DNA from: Adhaeribacter swui
Lineage (GTDB): Bacteria > Bacteroidota > Bacteroidia > Cytophagales > Hymenobacteraceae
Reading direction: 5' to 3'
NCBI RefSeq assembly: GCF_014217805.1
Contig: NZ_CP055156.1
Location: 1,866,585-1,930,584, forward strand
DNA length: 64,000 nucleotides
This document shows positions 6,836 through 41,326 of the stretch, piece after piece (the first letter of the stretch is position 1; each line of letters opens with the position of its first letter). A program made the translations under genes and the position numbers. The notes beneath the pieces are model-generated. The model did no database searches and had not been told where the DNA came from. It saw only the letters and a program-made list of their open reading frames with translations.

Positions 6836-7031
6836 TCCAGAAACAACGAATGAGGCCAACGGAAAAAATAGCGAATCACTTTCCAAAAAATTCCGGCCTC
6901 TTCGTCTCCCTAAAATTTCAGAAATATATCTTTAAAACCTCGCCTGAAGGGGCTTTGGCAATCAGGCTGTTATCTATTACCGGGCGTTCTGCGCTCGGCC
7001 GGATTCCCTTAACCTATATTTTTACAAAACT

Positions 7032-9410
7032 ATGTTAGTTATAAAAAGAGACGGCCGGCGTGAGTCCGTCAAGTTTGACAAAATTACGGCCCGAATAGAG
7101 AAGCTCTGCTACGGCCTGAACATGATTTACGTGTCGCCGATTGAAGTGGCTAAAAAGGTAATCGACGGGATTTACGATGGGGTAACCACCGTAGAACTCG
7201 ATAACCTGGCCGCCGAAATCTCGGCTTCCATGACTACCAAGCACCCGGACTACGCTATTCTGGCGGCCCGGATTGCCATTTCGAACTTGCATAAGGTTAC
7301 GGCTAAGTCGTTCAGCAGCACCATGAAGCGGCTGTATACTTACGAAGATCCGAAAACCGGCGAAAATGCCTCGTTGCTGGCAAAAGACGTGTACGAAATT
7401 ATCCGGAAAAATGCCGCTCTATTGGACTCCAGCATTATCTACGACCGCGATTACAACTACGATTATTTCGGTTACAAAACCCTGGAGCGTTCGTATTTGC
7501 TGCGCCTGGATGGCAAAGTAGTGGAGCGGCCGCAGCACATGCTCATGCGGGTAGCTATCGGTATCCACAAAAACGACATTGATTCGGCCATCGAGACTTA
7601 TAATTTAATGTCGGAGAAATGGTTTACCCACGCTACGCCTACCCTGTTTAATGCCGGTACGCCTAAGCCGCAATTATCGAGCTGCTTCTTGCTTACCATG
7701 AAAGAAGACAGCATTCCGGGCATTTACGATACCCTGAAAAGCTGCGCCATGATTTCGCAGAGCGCTGGTGGTATTGGCTTAAGCGCGCACAACATCCGGG
7801 CTACAGGTTCTTATATTAAAGGCACTAACGGTACTTCTAACGGTTTGGTACCTATGTTAAAGGTGTTTAACGATACGGCCCGTTACGTAGACCAGGGCGG
7901 TGGCAAGCGCAAAGGAGCGTTCGCGATTTACCTGGAGCCCTGGCACGCCGATGTTTTTGAATTCCTGGATTTGCGTAAGAACCACGGGAAAGAAGAAATG
8001 CGCGCCCGCGATTTATTCTACGCCCTCTGGATTCCGGATTTGTTTATGAAACGTGTGGAAAGCAACGGCGACTGGAGTTTGTTCTGCCCGAACGAAGCTC
8101 CTGGTTTACCGGATTGCTACGGCAAAGAGTTTGAACGCTTGTACGAAAAATACGAGAAAGAAGGCCGCGCCCGCAAAACCATTAAAGCGCAGGAGTTGTG
8201 GTTTGCCATTCTGGAAAGCCAAACCGAAACCGGTACGCCGTACATGCTCTTTAAAGACCACGCTAACAACAAATCGAACCAGCAGAACTTAGGTACTATT
8301 AAGTCTAGTAACTTATGTACCGAAATTATTGAGTACACTGCTCCGGACGAGATTGCGGTATGTAACCTGGCTTCGTTGGCGTTGCCGCGTTTTGTAACCG
8401 GCGAAGGTGAAATTAAGCAGTTTGATCACCAGAAACTGTATGAGGTAACTTACCACGTAACCAAAAACCTGAACAAGGTAATTGATATTAACTACTACCC
8501 CGTAGAAGAAGCCCGGAACTCTAACCTGCGCCACCGGCCCATTGGTTTAGGTATTCAGGGCTTAGCCGATACGTTTATTGCGCTGCGCATGCCGTTCGAA
8601 AGCGAAGAAGCCGCCCGCTTAAACAAAGATATTTTCGAAACTATTTACTTTGCGGCCATGACGGCTTCGAAAGATTTGGCGAAGAAAGATGGCCCGTACT
8701 CTACTTTCGAAGGTTCGCCTATTTCCCGCGGTATCTTCCAGTTCGATATGTGGGACGTTACCCCCGAGTCGGGCCGTTGGGATTGGGAAGCTTTGCGCAA
8801 CGAAGTAGTAGAACACGGGGTGCGTAACTCCTTGTTAGTAGCGCCAATGCCAACCGCCTCTACTGCGCAGATTTTAGGTAATAACGAAAGCTTTGAGCCG
8901 TATACCTCTAATATATATGTACGGCGCGTACTAAGCGGTGAGTTTATGGTGGTAAACAAACACCTGCTGAAAGACCTGATTAAACTCGGTATCTGGAACG
9001 ACAGCATGAAAAACCAGATTATCGCGGCCAACGGTTCTATCCAGAATATCCCGAACATTCCGCAGAACATTAAAGACCTGTACAAAACCGTTTGGGAAAT
9101 TAAGCAGAAAACCATTATTGACCTGAGCGCTGACCGTGGAGCGTACATCTGCCAAAGCCAAAGCCTGAACCTGCACGTACAGAACCCGAACTTCGGTAAA
9201 CTGACTTCGATGCACTTCCACGCGTGGAAACGCGGCCTGAAAACCGGTATGTATTACCTGCGTACCAAAGCCGCCGCCGACGCGATCAAGTTCACGGTAG
9301 AAAAACAAGCCGCTGAAACCCTGGAACCCATGAACGTTTCAGACCAAAACCGCAGCGACATGGCCTGCTCCCTGGATAACCCAGACGCATGCGAGGCATG
9401 TGGTAGCTAA
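7032..9410 (+). CDS. nrdA: Class I ribonucleotide reductase, alpha (catalytic) subunit
   Basis: The 792-aa R1 protein reduces ribonucleoside diphosphates. An ATP-cone starts the chain ([18 protein letters not shown]), so dATP feedback control is expected. The catalytic barrel shows [34 protein letters not shown], the NLCTEI segment and [19 protein letters not shown]. The C-terminus ends CEACGS, the redox-active Cys pair re-reduced by thioredoxin or glutaredoxin. Codon use and GC match the neighbourhood, in contrast to the next gene. A terminator follows 14 nt after the stop. Confidence 0.97.
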
Positions 9411-36776: not shown

Positions 36777-36784
36777 TATATTTA
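36777..36784 (+). promoter_or_regulatory. Possible -7 box TATATTTA before the cysteine leader
   Basis: It fits TAnnTTTG in seven of eight positions and is 17 nt before the first leader ATG. No convincing -33 box was found. A start near 36791 would suit a leader-peptide transcript. Confidence 0.35.
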
Positions 36785-36801
36785 CGGCACCAAATAAGAA
36801 T

Positions 36802-36891
36802 ATGAAAACAAACGCTTTTTCTTCGGCTCAATTTCAGATACCTGCGGCATGCTGTGGTTTCTGTTGTATGGCTATGGCGGGAAAGGCTTAA
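36802..36891 (+). CDS. Cys-rich leader peptide 1 (29 aa), upstream of sulfite reductase
   Basis: ATG to TAA, 29 codons, peptide MKTNAFSSAQFQIPAACCGF followed by CCMAMAGKA. Four Cys codons (17, 18, 21, 22 at 36850-36867) stand in a CCGFCC cluster. A strong terminator hairpin begins 22 nt after the stop. The segment AAAGGC (36882-36887), starting 15 nt after the last Cys codon, can pair with GCCTTT inside the left arm of that hairpin. This is the layout of an amino-acid attenuator: a ribosome waiting for Cys-tRNA leaves the segment free and prevents the hairpin. The leader role is inferred; only the coding frame and pairing are seen. Confidence 0.7.
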   Translation: MKTNAFSSAQFQIPAACCGFCCMAMAGKA

Positions 36892-36912
36892 TTGTAAGTT
36901 TATATAATTATC

Positions 36913-36948
36913 AAAAAGGCCTTTTCTGCTACCAGGAAAGGCCTTTTT
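36913..36948 (+). terminator. Attenuator hairpin 1
   Basis: AAAAAGGCCTTT (36913-36924) is perfectly complementary to AAAGGCCTTTTT (36937-36948), with a 12-nt loop and T run. It lies between the two leader peptides. Confidence 0.8.
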
Positions 36949-36985
36949 AATTCTGTACTAATTCTATTAAAACGATATAGATAAT

Positions 36986-37054
36986 ATGTTATATGTAGCC
37001 GCTTCTTGTTGTTGTATGTGTTGTTTTGCCCCGCTAACAGATTGGCCGGTATAA
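36986..37054 (+). CDS. Cys-rich leader peptide 2 (22 aa), upstream of sulfite reductase
   Basis: ATG to TAA, 22 codons: MLYVAASCCCMCCFAPLTDW then PV. Five Cys codons (8-10, 12, 13 at 37007-37024). The segment AGATTGGCC (37039-37047), starting 15 nt after the last Cys codon, can pair at seven of nine positions with GGCCTTTCT of the next terminator's left arm. The spacing is identical to that of leader 1 although the peptides are otherwise unrelated. The role as attenuator is inferred. Confidence 0.7.
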   Translation: MLYVAASCCCMCCFAPLTDWPV

Positions 37055-37090
37055 ACTATTACATTCTGCGGAGTTATTAGTTTTGCGTTG

Positions 37091-37120
37091 GGCCTTTCTT
37101 CGGTAAGAGAAGGCCTTTTT
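37091..37120 (+). terminator. Attenuator hairpin 2, just before sulfite reductase
   Basis: GGCCTTTCTT (37091-37100) pairs with AAGAGAAGGCC (37105-37115), one bulge, tetraloop CGGT, then five T (37116-37120). The sulfite reductase ATG is 34 nt further on, so read-through past this hairpin is needed for expression. Confidence 0.8.
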
Positions 37121-37154
37121 AATTTAGAAAAAATAAAAAATTTAAAAATAGAAC

Positions 37155-39287
37155 ATGTTAAGTTTTCGGACCGAATTTGAAAATCCGTTGGTTTCAAAAG
37201 AAATTATTGAACTCGACAAAAAAATACGCCAGTTCCGGGGTGGCCAAATTCCCGACGAAAAATTCCGGAGTCTGCGTTTAACCCGCGGTATTTACGGCCA
37301 GCGCCAGCCTGGCGTGCAAATGGTGCGCATTAAGTTGCCATTTGGCCGTTTAACGGTAAAGCAATTACTCACCATTTCTGATGTATCGGATGAGTACGCC
37401 AGCAAAAACCTGCACTTAACCACCCGCCAGGATATTCAGATTCACTTTGTAAGCCTGGACCGCACGCCGGAACTATGGGCCAAACTAGCCGAAGATGATA
37501 TTACCTTACGCGAAGCTTGCGGGAACACGGTACGTAACGTAACTGCTTCGTTTGATGCGGGTATTAACCCTGAAGAACCGTTTGATGTTTCACCGTACGC
37601 TTACGAAACCTTCCGGTACTTTTTACGCAATCCTATTTGCCAGGACATGGGCCGGAAATTTAAAATTGCGTTCTCAGCCAGCGAAGCCGATACCGCCATG
37701 GCCTACATGCACGATATTGGTTTTGTGCCGAAAGTAAAAATAGAAAACGGCGAAGAAATCCGGGGTTTCCGGGTAGTAATGGGCGGGGGGTTAGGCGCGC
37801 AACCCATGCTGGCTAAGTTAGGTTACGAGTTTCTGCCCGAAGACCAGGTAATTCCGTTAATCGAAGCTGTTTTACGGGTATTCGACCGCCACGGCGAACG
37901 CGTTAGTCGCAACAAAGCCCGTTTAAAATATCTGATCGCTAAGATTGGTTTTGAAGCCTTCATGGACTTAGTGGCCATAGAACGCACCGCTATTAAGAGC
38001 AAGACCTATACCATCGACCGCAACAGCGTGCCACAACCCGAGCCAGCGCCTGCGCGCGAGATTCCGGCCGTTGAAATTTTAAACCAGAACCATTACGAGG
38101 CCTGGTTAAAAACTAACGTTACCGAGCAAAAGCAAAAAGGATTCTACTCTGTAAAAGCCCGCGTGTTAATGGGCGATATTAAAACTGCCGAAGCGCGTAA
38201 ACTGGCTGCTTTGGTACAGGATTTTGCCGCCGACGATATTCGGGTAACCGCTAACCAGGGCTTGCTGTTTAAATACATTCGTCCCGAAGCTTTACCTTAC
38301 TTTTTCCAGGAACTGAATAAATTAGGTTTAGCCAAACCGGGTTTCGATAGCACCGCCGATATTACAACCTGCCCCGGCACCGACACCTGTAACTTAGGTA
38401 TTACCAACAGCATGGGTATTGCCGAAGTGCTGGAAGACATGATTAAAGAAGAGTTCCCGGATTTAATCTATAACCACGACATTAAAATTAAAATTAGTGG
38501 TTGCATGAACTCCTGCGGGCAGCATGGTTTGGCCAATATTGGTTTCCACGGCAGTTCTATTAAACACGGTAACGCCGTAGTACCAGCTTTACAGGTAATG
38601 TTGGGTGGTGGTACTCTGGGCAACGGCGAAGGCCGGGTAGCCGACCGGGTAATTAAAGTGCCTACCAAGCGCGGTCCGCATATCTTACGCTTTTTATTCA
38701 ACGACTTTGAAGCTAACGCTCAGGACGGCGAATATTTCAACTCGTACTACGACCGCCAGGGCAAAAACTACTTCTACCAGTTATTAAAGCCACTGGCCGA
38801 TTTAAGCACCATGGCTCCCGATGATTACAAAGACTGGGGCCACGTAGAAGAATACGCTACTGCCATTGGGGTAGGAGAGTGCGCCGGCGTTATGATTGAC
38901 CTAGTAGCAACTTTGTTGTTTGAGGTAGAAGAAAAACTGGAGTGGGCAATAGAAGCTTTAAAAAATGGTCAATACGCCGATTCTATTTACCATAGTTACA
39001 GCATATTTGTGGGTACTGCCAAAGCTTTGTTATTAAGCAAAGGCGTGTCCTGCAACACACAAATTGGTATTATCAACGATTTTAATACCCACTTTGTAGC
39101 CGATGGTACTTTTACTTTCGCGCCGGATTTTAAAACCCACGTGCTGCAAATCAATCAAAATGAACCTACTCAGGAGTTTGCCCTGCAGTATTTAACCGAA
39201 GCCGAAACCTTCTTGGCGGCCGCTAAAACCTACCGCGGCGACGAAGTAAAACGGCCCGAAGTATTGGCAGATTTGCTAAACGCTTAA
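37155..39287 (+). CDS. Ferredoxin/NADPH-type sulfite (or nitrite) reductase with a C-terminal HEPN-like domain
   Basis: 710 aa. Residues 1-555 hold two ferrodoxin-like/siroheme halves; the Fe4S4-siroheme ligands are Cys406, Cys412, Cys450 and Cys454 (C-x5-C and C-x3-C). RQDIQIHF and NTVRNVT are substrate-side landmarks. Residues about 595-665 (WAIEALKNGQYADSIYHSYS, then TAKALLLSKG and INDFNTHF) resemble a HEPN helical domain without the catalytic R-x4-6-H. Likely reaction: sulfite to sulfide; the adjacent siroheme, exporter and sulfhydrylase genes favour sulfite over nitrite. Transcription probably depends on passing the two Cys leader attenuators upstream. The role of the extra domain is unknown; it may bind a partner or nucleotide. 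Confidence 0.9.
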   Translation: MLSFRTEFENPLVSKEIIELDKKIRQFRGGQIPDEKFRSLRLTRGIYGQRQPGVQMVRIKLPFGRLTVKQLLTISDVSDEYASKNLHLTTRQDIQIHFVSLDRTPELWAKLAEDDITLREACGNTVRNVTASFDAGINPEEPFDVSPYAYETFRYFLRNPICQDMGRKFKIAFSASEADTAMAYMHDIGFVPKVKIENGEEIRGFRVVMGGGLGAQPMLAKLGYEFLPEDQVIPLIEAVLRVFDRHGERVSRNKARLKYLIAKIGFEAFMDLVAIERTAIKSKTYTIDRNSVPQPEPAPAREIPAVEILNQNHYEAWLKTNVTEQKQKGFYSVKARVLMGDIKTAEARKLAALVQDFAADDIRVTANQGLLFKYIRPEALPYFFQELNKLGLAKPGFDSTADITTCPGTDTCNLGITNSMGIAEVLEDMIKEEFPDLIYNHDIKIKISGCMNSCGQHGLANIGFHGSSIKHGNAVVPALQVMLGGGTLGNGEGRVADRVIKVPTKRGPHILRFLFNDFEANAQDGEYFNSYYDRQGKNYFYQLLKPLADLSTMAPDDYKDWGHVEEYATAIGVGECAGVMIDLVATLLFEVEEKLEWAIEALKNGQYADSIYHSYSIFVGTAKALLLSKGVSCNTQIGIINDFNTHFVADGTFTFAPDFKTHVLQINQNEPTQEFALQYLTEAETFLAAAKTYRGDEVKRPEVLADLLNA

Positions 39288-39510: not shown

Positions 39511-41058
39511 GTGTTAACTGAACCTAAAACTCTTACCGCCACTAACCAGGAGAACTATTTATTTCCGGTTTTCCTGAAGTTGCACGAACTGCATACTTTA
39601 ATAGTAGGTGGTGGCTTGGTGGGAGAAGAAAAAATTACGGCGGTGCTGCGCAATAGTCCGGAAGCCCGGGTAACGCTGGTAGCCACTCAAATTTTGCCTC
39701 AAATCCGGGAATTCGTCGCATCTTACCCGCAAGTTACTTTAATCGAAAGACCTTACGCCGCTACCGACCTGGAAGAGAAAGACCTGGTTATTGTGGCTAC
39801 CGATGATAAAGCCTTAAACCGGCAAATAAAACAACAGGCCAAAGCCCAAAAGTTACTCGCCAACGTAGCCGATACGCCGGATGAATGCGATTTTTACCTG
39901 AGTTCTATCGTCCAGAAAGGAAATTTAAAAATTGCTATTTCTACCAACGGCAAATCGCCCACGGTGGCCAAACGGGTAAAAGAAGTTTTAAACGACACAT
40001 TTCCGAACGAACTGGAAGCCGTACTGGATAACCTGCAGCAAATTCGGAACAGTTTAAAGGGCGACTTTGCCGAAAAAGTAAAACAACTAAATACCATAAC
40101 CGCAGTACTGGTGGATAAACCAGTTACTCCTACTATCACTGAAGCGCCTAAACCGGCGCCGGTGCCTTTGGTGCAACACATTAAACATTCCTGGCGGTAT
40201 CGGGTAATTATTGCCTTTTCTTGTTTAGGTCTGATGATTTCCGGACACTTGCTGTTCAGCTTTTTACCGCTGGATACCATTGGTGGCTACGCTTTGCAAT
40301 TAGCCGACGATATTGATTCTCAGATTCTGTGGTTTATGCTGGCGGGTTTTGTGGCGCAAATGATTGATGGGGCTCTGGGTATGGCTTACGGGGTAAGCGC
40401 CAGCACCTTCTTGCTCACGGTGGGTATTCCGCCGGCGGTGGCCAGCGCCAGCGTACACGCTTCCGAAATATTTACTAGTGGCGTTTCGGGTTTAATGCAC
40501 CTGCGTTTCAGGAACGTAAATAGCAAATTATTTAAAAATTTACTCTTGCCCGGCGTTTTAGGCGCTATTCTGGGAGCTTACATTCTTTCTTCTGCCGAAG
40601 ATTACTTATACATCATTAAGCCGCTGGTGGCTTGTTACACTTTGTTTCTGGGGGGCGTGATCATTAAAAAAGCGATAAAGAAAACTACCAAACGTAAACC
40701 GGTTCGCAAACTAGGCATTCTCGCTACCTTTGGCGGTTTCCTTGATTCGGTGGGTGGTGGTGGCTGGGGGCCAATTGTATCTTCGTCACTTATTGCTAGT
40801 GGCCGCAGCCCTTTGTACACCATTGGCTCCGTAAACTTGGCGGAGTTCTTTGTATCGTTGGCGAGTTCTATCACTTTTATTACGCTGCTGGGCTTTAATC
40901 ACTGGCAGGTAGTAGCCGGTTTAGTGCTGGGTGGGGTAGTAGCTGCTCCTATAGCCGCGGTACTGGCGCGTAAACTTCCCATAAAAGCCATGATGATTTT
41001 AGTAGGATTAATCGTGATTCTGGTAAGTTTGCGCAACATCATAACCATGATTTTTTAA
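39511..41058 (+). CDS. Fusion: siroheme synthase (precorrin-2 dehydrogenase/ferrochelatase) + TauE/SafE sulfite exporter
   Basis: 515 aa from a GTG start. Residues 20-205 are the CysG-N/Met8p enzyme: VGGGLVGEEK (NAD motif, 32-41), NVADTPDECDFYLSS (118-132) with the catalytic Asp, and STNGKSPTVAKRV. It would make siroheme from precorrin-2. A Pro-rich linker (203-222) leads to a membrane part (about 230-515) with eight segments and the TauE/SafE motifs DGALGMAYG and GGFLDSVGGGGWGP. Family knowledge: such proteins export sulfite or sulfoacetate. The fusion ties cofactor supply for sulfite reductase to anion transport. The same frame runs uninterrupted, so it is not two genes. Upstream gene: sulfite reductase. 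Confidence 0.9.
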   Translation: MLTEPKTLTATNQENYLFPVFLKLHELHTLIVGGGLVGEEKITAVLRNSPEARVTLVATQILPQIREFVASYPQVTLIERPYAATDLEEKDLVIVATDDKALNRQIKQQAKAQKLLANVADTPDECDFYLSSIVQKGNLKIAISTNGKSPTVAKRVKEVLNDTFPNELEAVLDNLQQIRNSLKGDFAEKVKQLNTITAVLVDKPVTPTITEAPKPAPVPLVQHIKHSWRYRVIIAFSCLGLMISGHLLFSFLPLDTIGGYALQLADDIDSQILWFMLAGFVAQMIDGALGMAYGVSASTFLLTVGIPPAVASASVHASEIFTSGVSGLMHLRFRNVNSKLFKNLLLPGVLGAILGAYILSSAEDYLYIIKPLVACYTLFLGGVIIKKAIKKTTKRKPVRKLGILATFGGFLDSVGGGGWGPIVSSSLIASGRSPLYTIGSVNLAEFFVSLASSITFITLLGFNHWQVVAGLVLGGVVAAPIAAVLARKLPIKAMMILVGLIVILVSLRNIITMIF

Positions 41059-41195
41059 AATTTAGTATATCCGGTATTAGTTAATCAACAACCATTTTGG
41101 TAGAACTTAAAATTGCTTATAGCCGGAAACTGATTAGCTGCGTAGCCAACAAGTTCCGCACTGAATGACTATATTTTTATTTAGGCACTTCTAAT

Positions 41196-41316
41196 AACTT
41201 GAAACTTGCAACTTGTAACCTGCAACTAATTTAATAACCTTTCAACTTTCCAACTTTTTAACTTTTTAACTTTTCAACCCATAACTTGCAACCTGCAACT
41301 TGTAACCTGTAACCCG
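41196..41316. repeat. Degenerate tandem oligonucleotide repeats (AACTTGCAACCTGTAAC type)
   Basis: Imperfect copies of ACTTGCAACTTGTAACCTGCAAC, a second run of AACTTTTTAACTTTTCAAC, and again AACTTGCAACCTGCAACTTGTAACC lie just before the metZ start. Low-complexity; it is not a CRISPR array and carries no conserved spacer pattern. Confidence 0.6.
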
Positions 41317-41326
41317 ATTCAAACCC

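Follow-up and report, generated by a model that had tools for sequence, protein, structure and literature searches.

Two short open reading frames crowded with Cys codons, each followed by a hairpin with a T-rich tail, lie between the end of an M43 peptidase gene (36593) and the start of an NIR_SIR-family reductase gene (37155) in Adhaeribacter swui. This arrangement raises the question of whether reductase expression follows the supply of cysteine, and what a second copy of the same device would add. The positions given here are those of the window, the whole 64,000-nt stretch of DNA that was analyzed (Table 1). Judged from the sequence, the locus probably carries, ahead of the reductase gene, a series of two transcription attenuators that are ribosome-mediated and respond to cysteine.

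Table 1. Features of the leader region and the neighboring sulfur genes, in window coordinates.
Feature	Position	Strand	Basis or remark
Candidate promoter -7-like element, TATATTTAC	36777..36785	+	By eye; 5/6 specified bases of TAnnTTTG
Leader peptide 1, 29 codons, MKTNAFSSAQFQIPAACCGFCCMAMAGKA, 4 Cys	36802..36891	+	Counterpart in 8/8 genus genomes
Cys codons of leader 1 (CC 36850-36855, CC 36862-36867)	36850..36867	+	Position by codon count
Predicted antiterminator 5' strand, module 1, partner 36917-36931	36875..36889	+	-22.7 kcal/mol, z -5.5, p 0.002; 15 bp including G-U pairs
Intrinsic terminator 1, 16 bp stem and U tail	36913..36948	+	Folding
Leader peptide 2, 22 codons, MLYVAASCCCMCCFAPLTDWPV, 5 Cys	36986..37054	+	Counterpart in 7/8 genus genomes
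Cys codons of leader 2 (CCC 37007-37015, CC 37019-37024)	37007..37024	+	Position by codon count
Candidate antiterminator 5' strand, module 2, AGATTGGCC, partners 37091-37094 and 37097-37099	37039..37047	+	-12.8 kcal/mol, z -1.0, p 0.166; weak pairing
Intrinsic terminator 2; its U tail ends at 37120	37090..37116	+	38 nt 5' of the reductase start
NIR_SIR-family (sulfite) reductase gene, putatively regulated; 710 aa	37155..39287	+	NIR_SIR domains
Sulfur gene downstream of the reductase: siroheme-synthase N-domain joined to a TauE exporter domain	39511..41058	+	Domain matches; possibly on the reductase transcript

Leader frames and hairpins in the window

The earlier note on this DNA was confirmed as to the positions of the two frames and the two hairpins, the number of Cys codons in each frame and the start of the reductase gene. 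The locus thus carries the hallmarks of attenuation, namely clustered codons for the amino acid of the downstream pathway and a terminator between leader and gene. Terminator 1 folds exactly at its tabulated position with -21.9 kcal/mol (z -5.5; equaled by 0/200 shuffles) and terminator 2 with -12.1 kcal/mol (z -2.2; 6/200), and neither hairpin was listed by a simple consensus terminator scan of the window. TAnnTTTG is the -7 consensus of Bacteroidetes promoters. Inspection by eye of 15 leaders, each the first or the only one before its gene, showed an element resembling this consensus shortly 5' of every one.

The earlier note had proposed that in each module a segment able to pair with the left arm of the terminator, and so to exclude the hairpin, begins exactly 15 nt after the last Cys codon. 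The exclusive pairing was borne out strongly for module 1 (-22.7 kcal/mol, p 0.002), but in module 2 of the window it is weak (p 0.166), and the module 2 region folds no better than its shuffles (z -0.74, 40/200). As for the spacing, both segments that had been pointed out do begin at the 15th nucleotide, but the pairing segment of module 1 is longer and begins at the 8th. Across the 26 modules of the genus described below, the duplex span, counted with one flanking unpaired base, begins anywhere from 0 to 15 nt after the last Cys codon; "exactly 15 nt" is therefore not a rule.

No NCBIfam equivalog cut-off was reached by the reductase; it is called a sulfite reductase on the strength of its family, the siroheme/TauE neighbor and the Cys leaders. 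No Rfam family reached its gathering score in the window, SAM-I and T-box riboswitches included; the two highest sub-threshold bit scores belonged to Thr_leader (on the other strand) and Bacteroid-trp.

Conservation in Adhaeribacter and a second sulfur operon

A Cys leader with a terminator precedes the reductase gene in all eight genus genomes, and two such modules are present in 7/8, the exception being A. aquaticus, which has only one within the 620 nt examined. The expectation set out beforehand, that relatives should keep the Cys clusters and hairpins at this place, agrees with these counts. The N-termini of the peptides vary among the genomes, and the Cys clusters are kept as ACCGFCC or ACCGICC, CCMCC, CCCMCC and MCCCC. 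Across the genus leaders the Cys codons come first, the pairing segment next and the terminator last, and the Cys cluster and terminator 2 are retained in all seven genomes that have module 2.

The same design stands at a second operon of the window's genome (G000), which comprises genes for PALP (cysteine synthase-like), JAB, ThiF-rhodanese and PAPS reductase. Two Cys leaders with terminators lie before the PALP gene (L143, 7286-7381, with three Cys codons, and 7461-7547), and the genome thus holds at least four Cys leader modules. The same tandem pair occurs at the PALP operon of G003, G004 and G005, and a family search with the cysteine synthase-like protein gave matches of >90% identity only in G000 and these three genomes. 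In G001, G002 and G006 there is a single Cys leader with its terminator, which precedes a gene for rhodanese or ThiF-rhodanese next to cysH. No second-operon Cys leader was seen in the incomplete contigs of G007. The CCxCC codon pattern occurs at 44 places in the window's genome. Thirty of these were examined, and only two, both at sulfur operons, combine a short Cys ORF and a terminator; these counts come from the scan of this genome, with genus-wide and looser own-genome scans left uncounted.

The genus set therefore consists of 26 modules (reductase leader 1, eight; reductase leader 2, seven; second operon, four, four and three), each of which has a hairpin followed by a T-rich tail, although L001 and L003 have interrupted tails in their SIR2 modules. 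Pairing between the post-Cys segment and the terminator left arm was compared with dinucleotide shuffles, the terminator cores being set by rule or by hand for the cysM-A, cysH and A. aquaticus modules. It reached p<0.05 in 20/26 modules with a mean z of -3.6; the modules are related by descent, and their p values are not independent. L144 (p 0.080) and module 1 of L031 (p 0.056) fell short of this threshold. The three sister sequences of the window's module 2 gave p values of 0.14-0.33, and its counterparts in L001, L003 and L031 are strong antiterminators (-17.7 to -22.6, p 0.002). Averaged by group, pairing was strongest with the group's own terminators in six of the seven groups, the seventh being a near tie, with means of -17.6 for cognate pairings vs -13.8 for other groups. 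At the level of single modules, only 8/26 found no better-pairing arm in another group, and cognate specificity is therefore to be read as a tendency.

Both alternative folds envisaged in the earlier note were recovered by RNAalifold from the eight module 1 sequences. When these were cut before the right arm, the antiterminator was predicted with 11 pairs, two of them with double changes; the terminator region gave the terminator with 16 pairs, six with double changes. The covariation terms were small (-1.4 and -0.01 for the antiterminator and terminator runs, respectively). We also modeled occlusion by hiding the RNA under and behind the ribosome from pairing. The left arm was sequestered on average at 0.83 with a ribosome stalled at the first Cys codon and at 0.74 with one stalled at the last. 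Once the ribosome had reached the stop codon the average was 0.28, a value that is partly a product of how the model is built. Under a strict definition (>0.5 when stalled at the last Cys codon, <0.3 at the stop), 11/26 modules switched, or 13/26 with the stall at the first Cys codon. Module 2 of the window moved only from 0.62 to 0.44. The predicted first attenuator is well supported by these analyses, and the putative second one draws its support from a conserved Cys cluster, from the presence of a terminator and from counterparts that are stronger.

Leaders in other genera

Beyond Adhaeribacter, the element proved common yet not general. A Cys-cluster ORF followed by an intrinsic terminator was present in 29/97 reductase upstream regions in all and missing from 68, compared with 0/97 on the opposite strand and 5/970 shuffles. 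Two composites in one region were found in 8/97, seven of them Adhaeribacter, compared with 0/97 on the opposite strand and 0/970 shuffles. These control counts rule out chance occurrence. The 97 regions comprise 80 named loci minus L051 and L078, which have too little upstream sequence, plus the family loci (7/22 dropped as identical to named loci) and G000, G003, G004 and G005.

Terminators are present in each of 15 modules that come from Chitinophaga, Rhodocytophaga, Anseongella, Chryseolinea, and unclassified Chitinophagaceae and relatives. These modules were drawn from 19 inspected loci picked for having a Cys ORF, with L014, L022, L030 and L037 omitted as close to tested ones; L032, L035, L048 and L066, which also have three Cys in eight codons, lie outside this inspection. 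Antiterminator pairing reached p<0.05 in 9/15 modules and was not significant in 6/15, and a module's own arm ranked first among the 15 in six cases. Examples of the pairs are GGAGGC with GCCTCC and TGCGG..AAGC with GCTTCCGCA. The other-genus leaders thus combine other sequences with matching antiterminators; the design is met repeatedly under changed sequences, but it is not universal.

A variant was observed in Pontibacter- and Botryobacter-type family loci, where a poly-Cys leader is present in 22/22. A SAM-I riboswitch (Rfam) directly precedes this leader in all 20 family loci scanned, as well as in 7/7 named Pontibacter-type loci, which overlap with the 22. Consistent intrinsic terminators were not found in the Pontibacter-type leaders, the composite occurring in 2/22. 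This suggests a different mechanism, perhaps a Rho-dependent one such as the relevant passage of a study of Actinobacteria proposes (PMC1262725).

Proposed mechanism, alternatives and known systems

Transcription would start just 5' of leader 1. With ample Cys-tRNA, a ribosome translating the leader would reach the stop codon and hide the post-Cys segment, and terminator 1 would form. With scarce Cys-tRNA, the ribosome would stall within the Cys cluster, leaving 36875-36889 to pair with the left arm of the terminator. The polymerase would then go on into leader 2, and the choice between termination and readthrough would be made once more before the reductase gene, provided that the weak module 2 antiterminator functions. 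Since reductase expression would need two successive stalls, leakage would multiply, and the response to Cys-tRNA would be steeper than with one attenuator. On this scheme, serial attenuators most likely multiply their effects.

The small-protein explanation takes the Cys-rich peptides as functional products that bind metals or act in redox, with ordinary gene-end terminators behind them. CC and CCC motifs do bind metals in some proteins. The N-termini vary, however, while the Cys codons, the stop position and the antiterminator pairing mostly persist; no Pfam or NCBIfam family matches the leader peptides; and the ORF with terminator, as far as the 30 examined pattern loci show, stands only before sulfur operons. 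The antiterminator complementarity would also be left unexplained, and we regard this explanation as very improbable. An action of the Cys leaders on translation or through Rho, as has been suggested for the mycobacterial poly-Cys ORFs, with terminators of minor importance, appears improbable too. It draws on the poly-Cys leaders without conserved terminators described in the relevant part of a report on Actinobacteria (PMC1262725) and on the rarity of the terminator composite in the Pontibacter-type leaders (2/22), but in Adhaeribacter every one of the 26 modules has the T-tailed hairpin, and 20 have a significant antiterminator.

It is also conceivable, though unlikely, that only module 1 is regulated, with module 2 being a leftover Cys leader whose weak or constitutive terminator sets a basal level. 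The figures for the window's module 2 (p 0.166, z -0.74, occlusion from 0.62 to 0.44) are compatible with such a role, and A. aquaticus manages with one module. The retention of Cys cluster and terminator in 7/7 genomes with module 2, the strong counterparts in L001, L003 and L031, and the preference of the SIR2a leader group for its own terminator arms argue instead for regulation at both modules.

For the two-attenuator reading, a wider generalization has about an even chance of being correct: that a cysteine attenuation regulon operates at sulfate-assimilation operons of Bacteroidota, in which some lineages stack two same-amino-acid attenuators (here two operons with four attenuators) into a multiplicative, ultrasensitive gate, and Pontibacter and Botryobacter nest SAM-I with a poly-Cys leader into a gate for SAM and Cys-tRNA. 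RNA-level control of cysteine synthesis is indicated in several Bacteroidota genera, and none of the literature matches examined describes such control. The locus would offer a natural test of two same-signal attenuators in series against one, with tighter repression and a steeper response expected, and species with one leader, two leaders, or a riboswitch plus a poly-Cys leader of the same gene provide ready comparisons.

Transcription attenuation by leader peptides of the trp/his type is the classical system. It shares with the present locus a short ORF with codons for the pathway amino acid and an antiterminator competing with a U-tailed terminator; here, in contrast, the amino acid is cysteine, two complete same-amino-acid attenuators stand in series, and the host is a member of the Bacteroidota. 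Polycysteine short ORFs of mycobacteria are reportedly leaderless, to go by the title of Canestrari 2020. These ORFs likewise place runs of Cys codons before sulfur genes and are cysteine-responsive, and the passage seen in one source terms them translation attenuation (PMC13236596). For the poly-Cys leaders of Actinobacteria, the corresponding passage of another gives no conserved terminators and suggests Rho dependence (PMC1262725), whereas T-tailed hairpins accompany 26/26 modules of the present genus.

The uORFC-8-2 motif, compared by its description in part of the source, is a predicted Cys attenuator before cysS in Rhodobacterales with proposed Cys-tRNA sensing (PMC8632094). Tandem Cys codons and a U run after a terminator-like stem are shared features; uORFC-8-2 itself belongs to Alphaproteobacteria and has one attenuator, two conserved Cys codons and another structure, and the downstream gene here is NIR_SIR rather than cysS. 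Bacteroid-trp RNA (RF01692) is described in the relevant passage as an amino-acid leader RNA of Bacteroidetes for tryptophan (PMC2864571), and the window does not match it (24 bits, E 3.1, vs a cut-off of 49 bits). The mgtCBR leader mRNA of Salmonella contains two leader ORFs, but according to the passage concerned these respond to two different signals, ATP and proline, and the hairpins are unlike intrinsic terminators (PMC3641672). A study of F. psychrophilum reports leader-peptide attenuation before amino-acid operons, in a passage that does not name cysteine (PMC9723704). Among the matches listed from the open-access literature, neither a described Cys attenuator nor a same-amino-acid tandem attenuator in Bacteroidota was found. 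Leader-peptide attenuation itself is thus known, and it is the serial arrangement of same-amino-acid attenuators in Bacteroidota that is absent from those matches.

Hairpin within the second leader module

In the clade of the window, module 2 (the second Cys leader with its terminator before the reductase gene) has a small hairpin (AAACTA...TAGTTT) between the two strands of its antiterminator. Its inner pairs, compared by eye, vary from species to species in this clade. The hairpin may aid in bringing the two strands together.

Neighboring sulfur genes

The protein encoded after the reductase gene combines two domains in a single chain, and it was aligned over nearly its full length in five of the 10 relatives compared (L001–L004 and L006). 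Four others (L011, L013, L036, and L045) had only a short ORF lacking the exporter part, and no match was found in L067. At L143, the second sulfur locus of the window's genome, the Cys-ORF scan listed no Cys leader before the CysN-like, CysD-like, APS kinase, and CysQ-like genes.

Features of the reductase region and related loci
Feature	Locus	Position	Strand	Remark
Small hairpin	window	37053-37083
Siroheme-synthase N-terminal domain + TauE/SafE exporter fusion	window	39511-41058	+
SAM-I riboswitch	L002 (A. aquaticus)	6945-7045		immediately 5' of O-succinylhomoserine sulfhydrylase homologue
CysN-like GTPase, PAPS_reduct-family (CysD-like) protein, APS kinase genes	L143	3043-6176		divergent from inositol-phosphatase (CysQ-like) gene

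SAM-I riboswitches in related genomes

The gene behind the A. aquaticus SAM-I riboswitch is a homologue of the O-succinylhomoserine sulfhydrylase gene in the window, where an Rfam scan detected no SAM-I riboswitch in the equivalent gap (41059-41326). In Pontibacter and Botryobacter (L004, L006–L010, L012, and L209–L230), a SAM-I riboswitch lies upstream of the reductase gene, immediately 5' of a poly-Cys leader ORF ending in CCCCCC*, CCCCCCSC*, or similar. Many of these loci also carry a second Cys-rich ORF closer to the reductase gene, frequently ending in GMRAC*.
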